Shown here piece by piece: positions 32,084 to 39,976 of a stretch of DNA of 64,000 nucleotides; the stretch's first letter is position 1; the number at the start of each line of letters is the position of its first letter. The notes beneath the pieces were generated by a model that saw nothing but the letters and a program-made list of their open reading frames with translations, was not told the DNA's origin and made no database searches. The stretch is from Cellulophaga algicola DSM 14237 (GTDB taxonomy: Bacteria > Bacteroidota > Bacteroidia > Flavobacteriales > Flavobacteriaceae). The stretch lies in NCBI RefSeq assembly GCF_000186265.1, contig NC_014934.1:4154001-4218000 (forward strand), read 5' to 3'. A program made the translations under genes and the position numbers.

Positions 32084-33451
32084 TTAAAACATTTTTTTAA
32101 GCTTTTTAGCAAAATCTAAAGACAACTTATAAGGAGGGTAACGTAATGGAATATCTAACCAAGTCCCTTTTTTGAGGATAGCTTTTGAGTGTGAAAATGT
32201 ATCAAAGGATATTTTACCATGATAGGCTCCAATGCCACTTGCGCCAACACCCCCAAAAGGAAGGTTTTTATTTGCAATATGGATTACAGTATCATTGATA
32301 GCGCCACCACCAAAACTATACTTGCTTAAAATTGTATCCTGAAATTTTTTATCGGCACTAAATACATAGGTCGCTAAAGGTTTCTCATAATTTGACATAT
32401 AAGTATCAATATCTGCTAGGGTTTCATAGGATATTATAGGTAGTATAGGGCCAAATATTTCTCCTTCCATCACCTTACTCTCCATTTTTGATTCGTCTAA
32501 AAGAGTAGGTGCTAGGTAGTTATCTACTGGATTATTTTCTCCTCCAAAAATAATTTTCTCGCCTTCTAACATGGCTAATAATCCTTCAAAATGCTTAGCA
32601 CTAACGGTCCGCGCAAAATCTGGAGAAGATGCAATTTCTGAACTATAGAAGCTTTTTATCGTTTCAATCAATTCGTGGATAAGTTTTTCTTTTACTGTCT
32701 TATGTACCAAAATATAATCAGTGGCAATACATGTTTGTCCTGCGTTTAAAAATTTACCCCATGCAATTCTTCGTGCTGCTACCGCAATGTTAGCTGTTGC
32801 ATCTACTATAGTGGGGTTTTTTCCTCCTAATTCTAAAGTTACTGGAGTCAAGTATTTTGCTGCGCTTTTATAGACAATCTGCCCTACCTTAGAACTTCCT
32901 GTAAAGAAAATATAATCCCATTTTTGTGCGAGTAAATTTTGAGAAGCTTCAACGCCACCTTCTACGACTGTAACATAATTTTCAGGAAACACTTCGGTAA
33001 TAATTTTAACTATAATTTCTGAAGTATTAGGAGTAATTTCTGAGGGTTTAATAACCGCAGTATTTCCTGCAGCTAGTGCACCAATTAATGGGGCAATAGC
33101 TAATTGAAAAGGATAATTCCACGGTGCAATTATCAATACCGTACCATAGGGTTCTTTATAAATATAATCTGAAGAAGGCCAATTGGCCCATGAAGTACTT
33201 TTACGGGCAGGTTTGGCCCATGAATTCAATTTTTTTATAGCTGTATTTAATTCTGCTAAAACAAATTGAGTTTCCGTAAGTATGGTTTCAAACTTTGGTT
33301 TTTTAAAATCTAAAAAGATTGCATCACAAATTTCATCCTCATATTTTTCAATAGCACTCATCAACTTCTTTAAATACTCTTTTCTAAAAGAAATGGACTT
33401 GGTGTGTTGCGTATGGAAAAATTCTCGTTGATTTTCTACTATTTGTTGCAT
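32084..33451 (-). CDS. Aldehyde dehydrogenase (class 3 / fatty-aldehyde type)
   Basis: A 455-residue NAD(P)-dependent aldehyde dehydrogenase. It has the N-motif IAPWNYPFQLAIAPLIGALAAGNTAVIKPSE, the Rossmann segment FTGSSKVGQ, the general base in TLELGGKNPTIVD, and the catalytic Cys in NAGQTCIATDYILVH. The short length and LPFGGVGASGIGAYHGKISFDTFSHSKAI end fit the class 3 (ALDH3, coniferyl or medium-chain aldehyde) group. A TAATTTTG -7 element lies 5 nt before the start codon. It converges on pxpC with adjoining stop codons. Confidence 0.92.
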   Translation of the reverse strand: MQQIVENQREFFHTQHTKSISFRKEYLKKLMSAIEKYEDEICDAIFLDFKKPKFETILTETQFVLAELNTAIKKLNSWAKPARKSTSWANWPSSDYIYKEPYGTVLIIAPWNYPFQLAIAPLIGALAAGNTAVIKPSEITPNTSEIIVKIITEVFPENYVTVVEGGVEASQNLLAQKWDYIFFTGSSKVGQIVYKSAAKYLTPVTLELGGKNPTIVDATANIAVAARRIAWGKFLNAGQTCIATDYILVHKTVKEKLIHELIETIKSFYSSEIASSPDFARTVSAKHFEGLLAMLEGEKIIFGGENNPVDNYLAPTLLDESKMESKVMEGEIFGPILPIISYETLADIDTYMSNYEKPLATYVFSADKKFQDTILSKYSFGGGAINDTVIHIANKNLPFGGVGASGIGAYHGKISFDTFSHSKAILKKGTWLDIPLRYPPYKLSLDFAKKLKKMF

Positions 33452-33455
33452 TTAT

Positions 33456-33463
33456 CAAAATTA
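33456..33463 (-). promoter_or_regulatory. -7 element of the aldehyde dehydrogenase gene
   Basis: On the minus strand this reads TAATTTTG, a full TAnnTTTG match, ending 4 nt before the ATG. It predicts a leaderless or near-leaderless transcript. Confidence 0.45.
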
Positions 33464-33509
33464 CGGATTTCTAAGGCTGTTTATCTCTAATTTTATTTAC
33501 ATTTACTTT

Positions 33510-33563
33510 ATGTTAGAAATAAAAAACAATATTTACGTCATTATTATTCTCCTAAAAGAATGA
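33510..33563 (+). CDS. Probable ilv leader peptide (attenuation)
   Basis: A 17-codon frame encodes MLEIKNNIYVIIILLKE and stops with TGA. Six consecutive codons are Val-Ile-Ile-Ile-Leu-Leu, exactly the products of the operon that starts at 33846. A strong terminator hairpin begins 19 nt after its stop. This is the layout of ribosome-mediated attenuation: when charged branched-chain tRNAs are scarce the ribosome stalls and the terminator is avoided. I did not find a convincing antiterminator pairing beyond a 5-bp match (tatag 33565-33569 with ctata 33596-33600), and the promoter is unclear (TACATTTA at 33498-33505 is one mismatch from consensus). Confidence 0.55.
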   Translation: MLEIKNNIYVIIILLKE

Positions 33564-33581
33564 TATAGACTTTTGTTGTTT

Positions 33582-33622
33582 AAAAAAGCCTGTATCTATA
33601 CGTAAAGATACAGGTTTTTTTT
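33582..33622 (+). terminator. Attenuator-type terminator before ilvD
   Basis: Stem cctgtatct (33589-33597) with agatacagg (33606-33614), an 8-nt loop, and an eight-T tract; the stem can extend through an A6/T6 pairing. It lies between a branched-chain leader peptide and ilvD, with no completed plus-strand gene before it, so an attenuator is more likely than an ordinary terminator. Confidence 0.75.
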
Positions 33623-33786
33623 ATGGAAAATACCGAAAAAATTAGCCTTTAAAAATAACTTTATTGTATTGAATATGGGAGAAATTACCGTTATAATAGA
33701 TTGATTTTCAGTATCTTAAATATATAATGTTAAAATTGACTTTGAACCAATAAGATTTGTTAAAAAACTAAGGAATTATAAACATT

Positions 33787-33794
33787 TATCTTTG
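33787..33794 (+). promoter_or_regulatory. Possible internal -7 element before ilvD
   Basis: TATCTTTG matches TAnnTTTG 51 nt before the ilvD start, downstream of the attenuator. If active it would give ilv transcription that escapes attenuation. The nearest TTTG (33756-33759) is too far (27 nt) for a normal -33. Confidence 0.3.
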
Positions 33795-33845: not shown

Positions 33846-35522
33846 ATGGAATTAAATAAATATAGTAAAAACGTAACTCAAGATCCTACACAACCAGCAG
33901 CACAAGCAATGTTGTATGGTATAGGTTTTAAAGATGAAGATTTTGAAAAGCCAATTATTGGTGTCGCAAGTACAGGTTACGAGGGAAATCCTTGTAATAT
34001 GCATTTGAATGATTTGGCCAAATTGGTAAAAGAAGGTGTAAATTCAAAAGCATCTGTTGGTTTAATTTTTAATACCATTGGTGTTAGTGATGGCATTTCC
34101 ATGGGAACTCCTGGAATGCGTTTTTCATTACCCTCTAGAGATATTATTGCCGATTCTATGGAAACGGTAGTGCAAGGAATGTCATATGATGGTTTGGTCA
34201 CTGTAGTAGGCTGTGATAAAAACATGCCTGGTGCATTAATGGCTATGATTCGTCTTAATCGTCCCTCTATTTTAGTGTATGGAGGTACCATTGCTTCCGG
34301 TTGCTATCAAGAGAAAAAATTAGATATCGTTTCTGCTTTTGAAGCCTGGGGAGAAAAAGTAGCAGGTACCATGAAAGAAGAAGATTTTCAGTGTATCATA
34401 AAAAAAGCAATTCCTGGTGCAGGTGCTTGTGGGGGAATGTATACAGCAAACACTATGGCTTCTGCAATTGAAGCTTTAGGAATGTCTTTACCTTATAACT
34501 CATCAAACCCAGCAGTGGGTAATGATAAAAAAGCGGAATGTATTGAAGCAGGTAAAAAGATGTTTTACCTTTTAGAGCATGATATTAAACCGCTAGATAT
34601 TGTTACTAGAAAATCTATAGAAAATGCTATTCGTCTTGTAATTATTATGGGTGGTTCTACAAATGCAGTACTTCACTTTTTAGCGATTGCAAGGGCTGCG
34701 GATATCGATTTTACCTTACAAGATTTTCAACATATTAGTGATACTACGCCATTTATTGCAGATTTAAAACCTAGTGGAAAATATTTAATGGAAGATGTAC
34801 ACCGCATTGGTGGTATTCCTGCAGTATTAAAATATTTATTAAAGAACGGATTACTACATGGAGATTGTTTGACTGTGACAGGAAAAACATTAGCAGAGAA
34901 TTTAGAGCATGTTCCTGATTTACAAGAAGGTCAAGATGTTATTCGCTCTTTAGATAATCCTATTAAAGCAACAGGGCATTTACGTATGCTTTATGGAAAC
35001 CTTGCTGAAAATGGTTCTGTAGCAAAAATCACAGGAAAAGAAGGCTTACTATTCAAAGGAACAGCTAAAGTTTTTGATAGTGAATATGCGGCAAATGATG
35101 GGATCAGTGCTGGTCAAGTTAAAAAAGGTGATGTTGTGGTCATTCGTTATGAAGGTCCTAAAGGTGGTCCTGGAATGCCAGAAATGTTAAAACCTACAGC
35201 CGCAATTATGGGTGCTGGTTTAGGAAAAGAGGTTGCCTTGATTACCGATGGTCGTTTTTCAGGGGGTACACATGGTTTTGTGGTAGGTCATATTTCGCCA
35301 GAAGCACAAGAAGGTGGTACTATTGCCTTAGTAAAAGATGGTGATATTATTACCATTGATGCAGAAACAAATGCTATAAATGTAGAAGTTTCTGATGAAG
35401 AACTAGCAAAGCGTAAGGAATCGTGGGTTGCTCCAGCCTTGAAGTTCAAAAAAGGAGTTTTATACAAATATGCACGTTCCGTATCCTCTGCAGCACAAGG
35501 GTGTGTTACGGATGAATTTTAA
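33846..35522 (+). CDS. ilvD: Dihydroxy-acid dehydratase
   Basis: Fe-S dehydratase of the shared valine/isoleucine pathway (dihydroxy acid to 2-oxo acid), 558 residues. The cluster Cys lie in [22 protein letters not shown] and [22 protein letters not shown]. Other signatures are [31 protein letters not shown] and [22 protein letters not shown]. It is the first structural gene of the ilv operon, preceded by the leader peptide and attenuator, and is followed by ilvB after 49 nt. Confidence 0.97.
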
Positions 35523-35571: not shown

Positions 35572-37311
35572 ATGAATACAGAGACAATAAGAGAAAAATC
35601 AAAATCGACGAATATGAAGACTGCTATAAAAATTAGTGGTGCCGAAGCAATAATACAATGTTTATTGGCTGAGGGAGTCGATTTAATTTATGGCTACCCT
35701 GGTGGTGCCATAATGCCTGTTTATGATGAATTATATAAATTTCAGGATAAACTAACACATATATTAACACGTCACGAGCAAGGTGCTACGCATGCTGCTC
35801 AAGGCTATGCAAGAGTTTCTGGCAAAGTAGGTGTTGCTTTGGCTACCTCTGGTCCTGGAGCAACTAATCTAGTGACTGGGTTAGCAGATGCGCAAATAGA
35901 TTCTACACCATTGGTCTGTATAACAGGCCAAGTAATTAGTCAATTATTGGGTTCAGATGCTTTTCAAGAAACTGATATTGTAGGAATATCTACACCCGTT
36001 ACAAAATGGAATTATCAAATAACAAAAGCTTCTGAAATTCCAGAAATATTGGCAAAGGCATTTTACATAGCAAAATCTGGTCGTCCAGGTCCTGTCTTAA
36101 TTGACATTACTAAAGATGCTCAATTTGAAATGTTTGATTTTTTATATGAAAAATGTACAGGTGTCCGCAGTTATAATCCTGTACCTAAGCCAAATATAAA
36201 TGCAATCACACAAGCAGCCAAATTAATTAACGAAGCTAAAAAACCTATGATCGTTTTTGGTCAGGGTGTTATTTTAGGTCAGGCAGAAGGCGAATTAAAG
36301 CAATTGGTAGAAAAAGCAGGTATTCCTGCCGCTTGGACCATTTTAGGGCTTTCTGCGATGGATACAGATCATCCTTTAAACGTAGGAATGGTAGGTATGC
36401 ATGGGAACTATGCGCCTAATGTTTTGACCAATGAATGCGATTTATTAATTGCTATTGGAATGCGTTTTGATGATCGTGTTACGGGTAATTTACAAACCTA
36501 TGCGAAACAAGCAAAAGTTATTCATTTTGAAATTGACCCAGCAGAGATTAATAAAAATGTGATATCAGAAGTTGCCGTTTTAGGGAACTCTAAAGAAACA
36601 CTACAATTATTACTTCCAATGATTGCTAAAAACAGTCATGAAGCTTGGCATAATGAATTTAAGAAAAGATACGAAATTGAATACAACGAAGTAATCAAAC
36701 ATGATATTAAACCTACGAAAGATGGTTTAACCATGGGTGAAGTTATTGAAGAGATTAATATCGCTTCAAATAATAGTGCTATTATCGTTACAGACGTTGG
36801 GCAACATCAAATGATTGCCTGTAGGTATGCAAAGTTTAACCAATCTAAAAGTAATGTTACTTCGGGTGGTTTAGGAACCATGGGCTTCGCTTTACCAGCG
36901 GCTATTGGTGCTAAGCAAGGTGCTATGGATCGTGAGGTTGTGGCAATTATTGGTGATGGTGGCTTTCAAATGACCATACAAGAACTAGGCGTTATTTTTC
37001 AACACAAAATTCCGGTTAAGATTGTGGTCTTAAATAATGATCATCTAGGAATGGTACGCCAATGGCAAGAATTGTTCTTTGAAAGAAGATATGCTTCTAC
37101 AGTTATGGTTAATCCTGATTTTGTAAAAATAGCTGAAGGGTATAGTATTGCATCAAAACGTGTGAGTGAAAGAAAAGATTTAAAAGCAACTATTCATGAA
37201 ATGATTGCTTCTAAAGAACCTTATTTCTTAGAAGTAAAAGTTGAAAAAGAAGGTAATGTATTTCCAATGATTCCTACAGGAGCATCAGTTTCAGATATCA
37301 GATTAAAATAA
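35572..37311 (+). CDS. ilvB: Acetolactate synthase large subunit
   Basis: ThDP enzyme that condenses two pyruvates, or pyruvate and 2-oxobutyrate, 579 residues. The N-terminal domain has YGYPGGAIMPVYDEL, TRHEQGATHAAQGYARVSGKVGV (ThDP-activating Glu) and TSGPGATNLVTGLADA. The C-terminal ThDP/Mg motif is GDGGFQMTIQELGVI...NND, with GGLGTMGFALPAAIGA before it. An ATG at 35614 (MKTAIKISGAEA) would remove 14 unusual residues and may be the real start. It acts with IlvN, encoded two genes downstream. Confidence 0.96.
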   Translation: MNTETIREKSKSTNMKTAIKISGAEAIIQCLLAEGVDLIYGYPGGAIMPVYDELYKFQDKLTHILTRHEQGATHAAQGYARVSGKVGVALATSGPGATNLVTGLADAQIDSTPLVCITGQVISQLLGSDAFQETDIVGISTPVTKWNYQITKASEIPEILAKAFYIAKSGRPGPVLIDITKDAQFEMFDFLYEKCTGVRSYNPVPKPNINAITQAAKLINEAKKPMIVFGQGVILGQAEGELKQLVEKAGIPAAWTILGLSAMDTDHPLNVGMVGMHGNYAPNVLTNECDLLIAIGMRFDDRVTGNLQTYAKQAKVIHFEIDPAEINKNVISEVAVLGNSKETLQLLLPMIAKNSHEAWHNEFKKRYEIEYNEVIKHDIKPTKDGLTMGEVIEEINIASNNSAIIVTDVGQHQMIACRYAKFNQSKSNVTSGGLGTMGFALPAAIGAKQGAMDREVVAIIGDGGFQMTIQELGVIFQHKIPVKIVVLNNDHLGMVRQWQELFFERRYASTVMVNPDFVKIAEGYSIASKRVSERKDLKATIHEMIASKEPYFLEVKVEKEGNVFPMIPTGASVSDIRLK

Positions 37312-37312
37312 A

Positions 37313-37894
37313 ATGGTAGATATAATATCCAAGAACAAGCCTAAAATTCATTCTAAAATAGAAGCCAAATCTAAGGCTATCGGGTTTACGATGCCTTCTG
37401 ATTTATATATAGGGAGTTTACTAAAGACCTTAATTGCTTCTAAACCTAACGCTCATATTTTAGAATTGGGTACAGGAATAGGATTATCACTTTCATGGAT
37501 GATTGATGGAATGGATGCTGATTCACGTTTAATATCGGTTGACAATGACCCTGAATTAATTAAAATTTCTACGGAGTTTTTTGGTACGGATAAAAGAGTG
37601 CAACTCATCTGTGAAGACGGATCGGTATGGCTTAAGAACTATAAGGGAGAAAAATTCGATGTAATTTTTGCAGATGCCTGGCCAGGAAAATACAGTGAAA
37701 TAGAAGAAGTTTTAAATCTTGTGAAAGTTGGCGGGTTTTATATTATTGACGACATGGCAAAACAAGAAAATTGGCCAGAAGGGCATGAAAAGCATGTTAC
37801 TGATTTAGTGTGTTACTTAGATGCTAGAGAAGACTTTAAATTAACAAAATTAAATTGGTCTACCGGATTAATAATCGCCGTTAGAAGTAACTAA
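37313..37894 (+). CDS. SAM-dependent O-methyltransferase-like protein inside the ilv operon
   Basis: A 193-residue class I SAM-methyltransferase fold. Motif I is ILELGTGIGLSLSWM, motif II is LISVDNDPELIKIS, motif IV is FDVIFADAWPGKY, and GGFYIIDDMAKQENWPEGHE resembles the metal-dependent O-methyltransferase (COG4122-like) loop. It starts 1 nt after ilvB and precedes ilvN by 47 nt, so it is co-transcribed with branched-chain amino acid genes, yet the pathway needs no methyl transfer. The substrate is unknown. Confidence 0.8.
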   Translation: MVDIISKNKPKIHSKIEAKSKAIGFTMPSDLYIGSLLKTLIASKPNAHILELGTGIGLSLSWMIDGMDADSRLISVDNDPELIKISTEFFGTDKRVQLICEDGSVWLKNYKGEKFDVIFADAWPGKYSEIEEVLNLVKVGGFYIIDDMAKQENWPEGHEKHVTDLVCYLDAREDFKLTKLNWSTGLIIAVRSN

Positions 37895-37941: not shown

Positions 37942-38472
37942 ATGGAAAAAAAGTGGTTTACAATATCAATTTATTCTGAAAATAACATCGGGTTATTAAA
38001 CAGAATTTCAGGAATTTTCTTAAAGAGACATATTAATATTGAGAGTTTAAACGTCTCTAAGTCAGAGATTGAGAGCGTATCAAAGTTTACAGTAGTTGTC
38101 TTTACTGAAGATGAAGTTGCACGTAAAATTGTAGGGCAAATTGAAAAACAAATAGAAGTTATAAAAGCATTTTATCATTTAGATGATGATACCATATATC
38201 AAGAATCTGTAATCTTTAAAATAGCCTCTAACCTTTTATTTGATGAACGTCAAATACAGAATATTATAAAAGATTGTAACGCAACAATCGTCACCGTATC
38301 TAGAGATTTCTTTGTTCTTGCAAAAACAGGAAGAAAGCATGAAGTGGATGATATGTACGAACAATTAAAACCTTTTGGAATCATGCAGTTTGTACGTTCT
38401 GGAAGAATAGCAGTTACAAAAGCACAGATGCCTATTTCTGTTATGCTATCAAAATTTAAGAAACAACAATAA
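37942..38472 (+). CDS. ilvN: Acetolactate synthase small (regulatory) subunit
   Basis: A 176-residue regulatory subunit. The N-terminal ACT domain is clear ([21 protein letters not shown], then [16 protein letters not shown]). The C-terminal half ([20 protein letters not shown], then [20 protein letters not shown], then [15 protein letters not shown]) is the second domain of the long form. ACT domains bind valine for feedback inhibition and stabilise IlvB. It stands between the methyltransferase gene and ilvC (28 nt). Confidence 0.93.
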
Positions 38473-38500: not shown

Positions 38501-39976
38501 ATGGCAAATTATTTCAATACACTATCACTGAGAGAACAATTAACCCAACTAGGGAAATGTAGATTCATGGATACAAGTGAATTTTCTGATGGTGTAGACG
38601 CTTTAAAAGGGAAAAAAATAGTAATCATAGGTTGTGGAGCACAAGGTTTAAATCAAGGTTTAAACATGCGTGATTCTGGTTTAGATATCTCTTATACATT
38701 ACGTGATGCTGCAATAAAAGAACAAAGACAGTCTTATAAGAATGCTAAAGAAAACGGGTTTACGGTTGGTACATACCAAGAATTGATTCCAATAGCAGAT
38801 TTAGTAATTAACCTAACGCCAGATAAGCAACATACGAATGTAGTAGAAACGGTAATGCCTTTAATGAAAAAAGGAGCAACCTTATCTTACTCACATGGTT
38901 TTAATATTGTTGAAGAAGGTATGCAGGTTCGTAAAGATTTAACGGTAATCATGGTTGCCCCTAAATCTCCGGGTTCTGAAGTTCGTGAAGAATATAAAAG
39001 AGGTTTTGGAGTGCCAACACTTATTGCGGTGCACCCAGAGAATGACCCAGAAGGTAAAGGTTTAGCAGAAGCAAAAGCCTATGCGGTAGCAACCGGTGGA
39101 GATAAAGCAGGTGTTTTAGAATCTTCTTTTGTGGCTGAAGTAAAATCAGATTTAATGGGAGAGCAAACTATTCTTTGTGGTTTGTTACAAACTGGATCTA
39201 TTTTATGTTTTGATAAGATGATTGCTAAAGGTTTGGATGCTGGTTATGCTTCTAGACTTATTCAATATGGTTGGGAAACGGTTACAGAAGGTCTTAAATA
39301 TGGTGGAATTACACATATGATGGACCGTTTGTCTAATCCTGCGAAAATTAAAGCTTTTGAACTTTCAGAAGAATTAAAAGAAATTATGCGTCCATTGTTT
39401 CAAAAACATATGGATGATATTATTGAAGGTGAGTTTTCTAAAACGATGATGGAAGACTGGGCTAATGATGATAAAAACCTATTAACATGGAGAGCGGAAA
39501 CAGGAGAAACTGCTTTTGAAAAAACACCAGCAGGTAGCGATAAAATTTCTGAACAAGAATTTTATGATCATGGTGTGTTAATGGTGGCTATGGTTAGAGC
39601 AGGAGTAGAGCTTGCTTTTGAAGCGATGACAGATTCTGGAATTATAGCAGAATCTGCTTACTACGAGTCATTACATGAAACTCCATTAATTGCGAACACT
39701 ATTGCTCGTAAAAAATTATTCGAAATGAATCGTGTAATTTCTGATACAGCAGAATACGGTTGTTATTTATTTGATCATGCTTGTAAGCCTTTATTAAAAG
39801 ACTTCATGTCTAAAATTGATACTGATGTGATCGGTAAAAAATTCGGAGAAGGAAAAGGCAATGGTGTAGATAATGCTAAATTAATTGAAGTGAATAAAGC
39901 GTTAAGAGAGCATCCAGTAGAAATTGTTGGAGCTAGATTAAGAGCTTCAATGACAGCAATGAAACCTATCGTATAA
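38501..39976 (+). CDS. ilvC: Ketol-acid reductoisomerase, class II
   Basis: A 491-residue enzyme that isomerises and reduces acetohydroxy acids with NADPH and Mg2+. The Rossmann segment is [20 protein letters not shown], and [31 protein letters not shown] is the catalytic region. The length and duplicated C-terminal knotted domain identify class II, the long form also found in E. coli. It is the last gene of the operon, ended by the strong hairpin at 39994-40045. Confidence 0.97.

Follow-up and report, generated by a model that had tools for sequence, protein, structure and literature searches.

The ilv leaders of E. coli combine branched-chain codons with a protector, an antiterminator and a terminator, which is also the layout of the ilv leader of Cellulophaga algicola described here. 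In contrast to the latter, the E. coli leaders are translated by Shine-Dalgarno initiation. A comparative survey by Lopatovskaya and colleagues (2010) may already include cases from Bacteroidetes.

In C. glutamicum, a leader peptide rich in branched-chain residues likewise precedes ilv genes. According to the passages considered, the ilvBNC attenuator comprises three hairpins, as here, and translation initiation on leaderless mRNA is discussed (PMC11857589, PMC10272879). This system belongs to another phylum and has the gene order ilvB-N-C; it is likened to the C. algicola locus by description. The attenuator RNA of trpL/rnTrpL from S. meliloti begins with the leader ATG, as the P1 RNA predicted below may do, too. 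It differs in that it concerns Trp and in that the terminated RNA is reported, in the part of the source considered, to act in trans (PMC7298713). For mycobacteria, leaderless polycysteine attenuators are named in a reference title (PMC13236596).

The mRNAs of Bacteroidota are devoid of Shine-Dalgarno sequences, and the phylum employs a sigma factor of its own (PMC6847099, PMC7366714, in the passages covered). The literature covered contained little detailed description of classic attenuation in this phylum. The statement of the first-pass annotation that attenuation is much less well described in Bacteroidota than in Proteobacteria nevertheless has to be refined, because precedents exist. The Bacteroid-trp RNA (RF01692) is part of a motif table (PMC2864571) and is discussed for F. 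psychrophilum (PMC6414381). For this species, which belongs to the same family as C. algicola, a transcriptome study reports strong hints of leader-peptide attenuation upstream of operons for amino acid biosynthesis; the passages considered mention neither an ilv leader nor an antiterminator nor a leaderless leader ORF (PMC9723704). In B. thetaiotaomicron, short leader-peptide-like ORFs are located in long 5' UTRs (PMC7366714, in part). A description of a flavobacterial ilv leader family was not found in the literature searched, which lies mostly outside subscription journals.

Like the ilv leader, Bacteroid-trp is, as far as these sources describe it, an attenuator-like RNA of Bacteroidetes. 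In contrast, it contains Trp codons, and its covariance model matched neither the ilv leader nor any other part of the window, i.e. the 64,000-nt stretch of C. algicola DSM 14237 analysed here (NC_014934.1, positions 4,154,001-4,218,000). The genome, a single contig of 4.89 Mb, contains one RF01692 match (L082; G000:C1:2678204-2678320, minus strand), which comprises the leader MKNLTVNTWWWNNLRKNA and a TATCTTTG element 6 nt before its ATG. A Trp-rich leader was identified in 30 of the 31 RF01692 loci examined, and in 10 of these the gap between -7-like element and ATG was 4-6 nt (6 nt in C. algicola). In the spread survey, Bacteroid-trp matches amounted to 79/100.

Layout of the ilv leader and its occurrence in relatives

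According to ORF and Pfam assignments, the leader ORF and the terminator precede ilvD, ilvB, an O-methyltransferase gene, ilvN and ilvC (Table 1). The order ilvD-ilvB-ilvN-ilvC of the first-pass annotation holds, with the refinement that the O-methyltransferase gene lies between ilvB and ilvN. The 17-codon frame with six consecutive Val/Ile/Leu codons, noted there as well, is borne out by the sequence: the frame ends with TGA at 33561-33563 and contains the run GTC ATT ATT ATT CTC CTA at 33537-33554. The strong intrinsic terminator, a hairpin at 33584-33619 with a T-run to 33622, is located between the leader ORF and the first structural gene; it begins 20 nt and not, as initially stated, 19 nt after the stop codon. 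The fold of positions 33500-33640 has an energy of -35.3 kcal/mol compared to a shuffle mean of -16.6 (z -6.58), and none of 200 shuffles was as stable. A generic terminator scan listed the hairpin on the minus strand only, presumably because the plus-strand T-run is taken up by A-U pairing.

Table 1. Features of the ilv locus, numbered from the first nucleotide of the window
Feature	Position	Strand	Basis
Predicted P1 -7 element TACATTTA, 5/6 of TANNTTTG, 4 nt before leader ATG	33498..33505	+	motif conservation
Leader peptide ORF MLEIKNNIYVIIILLKE	33510..33563	+	sequence read; relatives' alignment
Region 1: Val/Ile codon run, main sensor codons GTC ATT ATT ATT, protector 5' strand	33537..33550	+	folding, alignment
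Region 2 GATATAGACTTTT: antiterminator 5' strand, overlaps leader stop codon	33562..33574	+	pairing, folding
Region 3 AAAAGCCTGTATC: antiterminator 3' strand and terminator 5' arm	33584..33596	+	pairing, alignment
Region 4: terminator 3' arm and T-run	33607..33622	+	folding, alignment
Conserved block before P2, about 120 nt, nearly fixed spacing, 33 aligned loci	33669..33786	+	alignment
Predicted P2 -7 element TATCTTTG, perfect TANNTTTG, downstream of terminator	33787..33794	+	motif conservation
ilvD	33846..35522	+	ORF and Pfam
ilvB (acetolactate synthase large subunit)	35572..37311	+	ORF and Pfam
O-methyltransferase, between ilvB and ilvN	37313..37894	+	ORF and Pfam
ilvN (acetolactate synthase small subunit)	37942..38472	+	ORF and Pfam
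ilvC	38501..39976	+	ORF and Pfam

Genome contigs of relatives were scanned with IlvD and the best 80 of 586 relatives were taken, most of which are titled Flavobacteriaceae; the closest among them is Aurantibacter crassamenti (91%). A strict unit was defined as an ATG-initiated ORF with at least 6/8 I/L/V residues, which is followed after 15-48 nt by a strong terminator. Such units were detected in 31 of the 80 upstream regions (700 nt before ilvD, less at a contig end); 20 x 80 dinucleotide shuffles yielded none. In the whole window, a strict unit occurs once on both strands taken together. Many short Ile-rich ORFs exist in AT-rich DNA, and the unit might be a chance ORF beside the ordinary terminator of some upstream transcript. 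This explanation was rejected; it is contradicted by the above conservation, and the neighbouring upstream gene, an aldehyde dehydrogenase ORF (32084-33451, minus strand; Pfam Aldedh), is divergent. Its probability is practically negligible.

A looser scan of up to 2500 nt upstream, performed without shuffle control, identified a unit in 40 of these best 80 loci; it found none in the other 40, two of which had less than 300 nt of upstream DNA. In nine of the 80 loci, another gene abuts ilvD. Three of these nine genes were checked and are class IV aminotransferases (ilvE-like); the other six begin like these three. In eight of the nine loci (L014, L016, L024, L027, L032, L037, L046 and L069), a unit was present upstream of the abutting gene, whereas the looser scan found none at this position in L038. 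The unit therefore belongs to the head of the operon and not to ilvD. Tandem pairs of units occur in 14 loci among the 80, namely near ilvD in eight (L009, L028, L031, L039, L047, L048, L057, L073) and upstream of the aminotransferase gene in six (L014, L016, L027, L032, L046, L069).

From these relatives, a set of 41 units was compiled, which consists of the window unit and 40 units in 32 relatives. According to their terminators, the units were assigned to the classes A (CCTGTATC type, 16 units), B (CCTTCC or CCTTTC, 15 units), C (CCCTT, 9 units) and D (CCATC, one unit). L074 was left out, as it contains a 42-aa ORF before an unrelated hairpin; for the first ORF of L047, a shorter version in register with its relatives was used.

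The class A model R1, which includes 20 nt upstream of the ATG, matched in 118 of 299 family genomes at E <=0.01. Matches near E 0.01 are at noise level. Because noise in the C. algicola genome begins at E 0.0127, only the 60 genomes with a best E <=1e-5 among the matches listed were counted as safe, the own genome and the training genomes included. Among 30 fetched R1 loci, ilvD was located downstream of all 26 that had not been used for training. The C. algicola genome contains 31 other R1 matches, one of which (L088) is the opposite strand of the window hairpin. Six further matches were inspected and look like ordinary terminators close to the ends of genes or next to a tRNA gene.

The phylum was sampled by means of 40 upstream regions from 39 of the 109 genomes with an ilvD match; three regions were from genus g112 of the same family. 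Under loose criteria and without shuffle control, 11 of the 40 contained a candidate unit: 8/10 in family f21, 2/5 in f8, 1/3 in g112 and none in the other 22. In L170-L177, which belong to f21 and thus to another class of the phylum, ilv leaders of the MLSTVISLVIIRVIG type precede GCCTTCC-type terminators.

Alternative pairings and control codons

A full antiterminator, which had not been found by eye in the first-pass annotation, was revealed by pairing tests. Regions 2 and 3 form 12 pairs with one mismatch (-10.9 kcal/mol), and none of 100 shuffles was as strong. As judged by sequence and computation, this pairing and the terminator are mutually exclusive. In the complete set of 41 units, for which the original automatic ORF of L061 was used, the own partners yielded a mean of -10.66 compared to -7.36 (sd 0.40) for permuted partners; none of 20,000 permutations reached this value. 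Class A region 2 pairs with the arms of other class A units at -10.84, with B arms at -5.30 and with C arms at -6.31. Since different class A units pair as well as the own partners, the evidence for covariation of the antiterminator lies between the classes, where region 2 changes together with region 3.

In an alignment of 12 class A sequences, the antiterminator was 93.1% paired compared to 25.5-49.3% when slid. Within class A it varies little: shuffles reached the paired percentage in 40/500 cases and the covariation score in 29/500. Several single units, among others L033, L036, L044 and the second unit of L047, showed no clear win over their own shuffles; the case for the antiterminator therefore rests on the whole set. 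For the class B unit L033, no antiterminator was found in the stretch used (-3.4 kcal/mol, equalled or surpassed by 74/100 shuffles); the sequence GGAATGG just 5' of this stretch may represent region 2.

In the protector hairpin 1:2, the Val/Ile codons pair with region 2. This helix of 8 pairs had 100% of its cells paired in the 12 class A sequences, and three pairs were changed on both sides; the terminator was 98.1% paired in the same alignment. Protector and terminator covary within class A, and the antiterminator covaries between classes. Codon choice was compared in 40 units of classes A-C: the actual codons pair with region 2 better than random synonymous ones, with a mean z of -1.3 to -1.6 per class, and 16 of the 40 units were below p 0.05. 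The window alone was not significant in this test (p 0.355).

Within the Ile/Val run, four second codon positions in succession carry T in every one of the 12 aligned sequences. Conservation in relatives, proposed in the first-pass annotation as a sign of a genuine attenuator, was confirmed for the codon run and the terminator, and the hydrophobic codons are conserved in frame. T-boxes and riboswitches, i.e. leaders that bind tRNA or metabolites, govern branched-chain genes in other phyla, and such an RNA instead of a translated leader was considered. It was rejected on account of this in-frame conservation at second positions and of the search with Rfam 15 (T-box, riboswitches, other ilv motifs), which gave 0 matches above the gathering score in the window; we regard this alternative as scarcely credible.

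Compared to the ilvD genes of the same 33 loci, the 41 leaders are enriched in codons of regulated amino acids, as is expected of leader-peptide attenuators. Ile codons account for 29.1% (6.8% in ilvD) and Val codons for 13.8% (7.1%); Leu codons are, at 4.8%, below the 8.9% of ilvD. Ten of the 16 class A units, among them that of the window, have their last Ile/Val codon at the fifth position ahead of the stop codon. In the window, Leu-Leu-Lys-Glu occupies the spacer where other class A leaders have, for example, PSGG, PEMG or PLRE. Two adjacent Leu within the last six residues occur in none of the other 15 class A units; the leader of the non-training locus L098 resembles the window in this respect.

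Ribosome states were mimicked by masked folding, in which the 5' part was hidden and the 3' edge of the ribosome was assumed to be 15 nt from the first base of the P-site codon. Without a ribosome, helix 1:2 forms. When the A-site is occupied by one of the Ile codons of the run, 2:3 forms with about 12 pairs in transcripts ending at 33600-33610. With a ribosome at the stop codon, neither 1:2 nor 2:3 is formed. The placement required of control codons, namely that a stall frees region 2 and a ribosome at the stop codon covers it, was found for the Ile codons 33540 and 33546 and also for CTC. A stall at CTC, the first Leu codon, leaves 2:3 intact; at the second one, CTA, this is the case only in part. 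Leu is therefore a weaker candidate signal. In this model, sensing would be mainly of Ile and Val, with the Leu codons being part of the spacer, and a stall at the first Leu codon could still count. When the terminator has been transcribed completely, 3:4 (-18.7) by far exceeds 2:3 (-11.3) in stability, whatever the ribosome state; antitermination must therefore be kinetic.

The Val codons of the leaders are strongly biased. GTC accounts for 62 of 107 (58%), compared to 131 of 1283 (10%) in ilvD of the same loci and to 60 of 1007 in 37 genes of the window. Its share exceeds that of the own ilvD in 39 of the 41 leaders. More than nine codons away from the stop codon the skew persists (24/36), which is why the protector hairpin alone offers no full explanation. 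Among 44 tRNA matches in the C. algicola genome, one tRNA-Val gene (L190) with the anticodon UAC was found. GUC may be hard to decode for this single tRNA.

Predicted promoters P1 and P2

The -7 element of F. johnsoniae covers positions -12 to -5, which leaves 4-5 nt to the start site (PMC6847099, in part). Applying this spacing to the P1 element TACATTTA, which is without the final G, the predicted start site is 33510, the A of the leader ATG. An equal match, TAATTTTA, is located 14 nt before the ATG and 10 nt upstream of TACATTTA and would give a short leader. With ORFs as called automatically, 11 of the 12 class A single units have a TANNTTTG-like element (at least 5/6) 4-5 nt before the ATG. 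The same spacing is found in all 12 once L061 is re-called from a later in-frame ATG, which was chosen in the knowledge that a -7-like element stood 4 nt before it, so that L061 lends no independent support to a leaderless start. The per-position background of -7-like elements is 1.4%; a binomial value for the spacing overstates its significance because the sequences are related.

The spacing of 4-5 nt was also present in 19 of the 26 non-training R1 loci, and gaps of 4 and 5 nt made up 21 of 35 hits when ATG and GTG starts were allowed; R1 hits lean towards this spacing because the 20 nt before the ATG are part of the model. In all classes, a -7-like element lies at most 30 nt from the ATG in 29 of 33 first units compared to 28% of random positions. 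In classes B and C, gaps of 8-11 nt predominate; 2 of 8 second tandem units possess the element. A sigma-70 promoter scan yielded 6 sites compared to 6.8 expected and was uninformative.

In light of the 4-5 nt spacing, the P1 transcript may be leaderless. Literature values argue against taking such a start for granted, as far as the sources were covered: leaderless mRNAs are a minority of 5.5% in F. psychrophilum (PMC9723704), and leaders exceed 10 nt in 87% of the transcripts predicted for F. johnsoniae (PMC6847099). Two side observations concern the same spacing. In L098 and L105, a GTG located exactly 4 nt downstream of a -7-like element appears to be the start codon of the leader ORF. Moreover, a perfect TAATTTTG (33456-33463, minus strand) is located 4 nt before the ATG of the divergent aldehyde dehydrogenase gene, whose mRNA may therefore be leaderless, too.

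The -7 element at 33787, which the first-pass annotation had considered as a possible bypass of the terminator, is a perfect TANNTTTG. Among the class A single units, 11 of 12 keep it at a distance of -48 to -59 from ilvD, and a bypass promoter P2 is therefore likely. It was further found in 20 of 24 called non-training loci, which were picked by a model that excludes the P2 stretch. Altogether, a perfect TANNTTTG between terminator and ilvD occurs in 13 of 33 loci compared to 5.6 expected from mononucleotide shuffles. The conserved block that precedes P2, aligned in 33 loci that carry the P2 element, possibly contains factor-binding or operator sites of some regulator.

This conservation of P2 and of the block, together with a window P1 element that matches in only 5/6 positions, would be in agreement with a real but minor attenuator, where most ilv mRNA originates from P2 under some regulator and P1 only adds to it. 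However, these loci also show strong conservation of the attenuator, unexpected for an element that hardly mattered, and only 2 of the 21 other unit-bearing loci contain a perfect TANNTTTG between terminator and ilvD. We consider a minor role possible but rather unlikely. The existence of P2 is also compatible with an independent trans-acting P1 product of about 110 nt, the ilv genes being served by P2; in S. meliloti, terminated attenuator RNA is described as acting in trans in the case of rnTrpL (PMC7298713, in part). In contrast, the covariation of 2:3 between classes and the position at the head of the operon are cis features, which makes a trans-acting RNA highly improbable.

Proposed switch and its meaning

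As sequence and comparison demonstrate, the locus contains a leader ORF, a terminator, an antiterminator and a protector hairpin, and relatives conserve all four along with their alternative pairings. The layout of ribosome-mediated attenuation recognized in the first-pass annotation is thus supported. The ilv leader is very probably a ribosome-mediated transcription attenuator of the ilv operon that would mainly sense charged tRNA-Ile and tRNA-Val.

From these features, we infer transcription from P1 and P2, translation, stalling and read-through as follows. Transcription from P1 would start at or near the leader ATG. With an ample supply of Ile and Val, translation would proceed to the stop codon, where the ribosome would cover region 2, and the terminator 3:4 would form. 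When Ile-tRNA or Val-tRNA is short, the ribosome would stall in GTC ATT ATT ATT, such that region 1 is covered and region 2 is free. Pairing of 2:3 would then take place before region 4 is made, and RNA polymerase would continue into ilvD. Without translation, 1:2 would pair and the terminator would prevail. P2, which lies beyond the terminator, would supply an unattenuated share of transcription.

Judged by its sequence features, the locus represents a conserved attenuator of known kind, whose ilv leader family is unmatched in Rfam 15. The points of interest are the putative leaderless leader, the presumed tuning to GUC and the likely bypass promoter, besides the tandem units of relatives. 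A complete ilv attenuator with covarying arms in many flavobacteria would allow for a direct test of coupled transcription and translation in Bacteroidota, and the predicted start at or near the ATG for a direct test of leaderless initiation in this phylum. More tentatively, and with somewhat more doubt than confidence, we propose that branched-chain synthesis in Flavobacteriaceae may be under the control of a widespread RNA family unmatched in Rfam, which combines a leaderless leader peptide with a downstream bypass promoter. The peptide would be tuned to GUC, the codon that the single tRNA-Val (UAC) may decode least well, and in many genera two attenuators would stand in series at the head of the operon, both of whose terminators would have to be passed.
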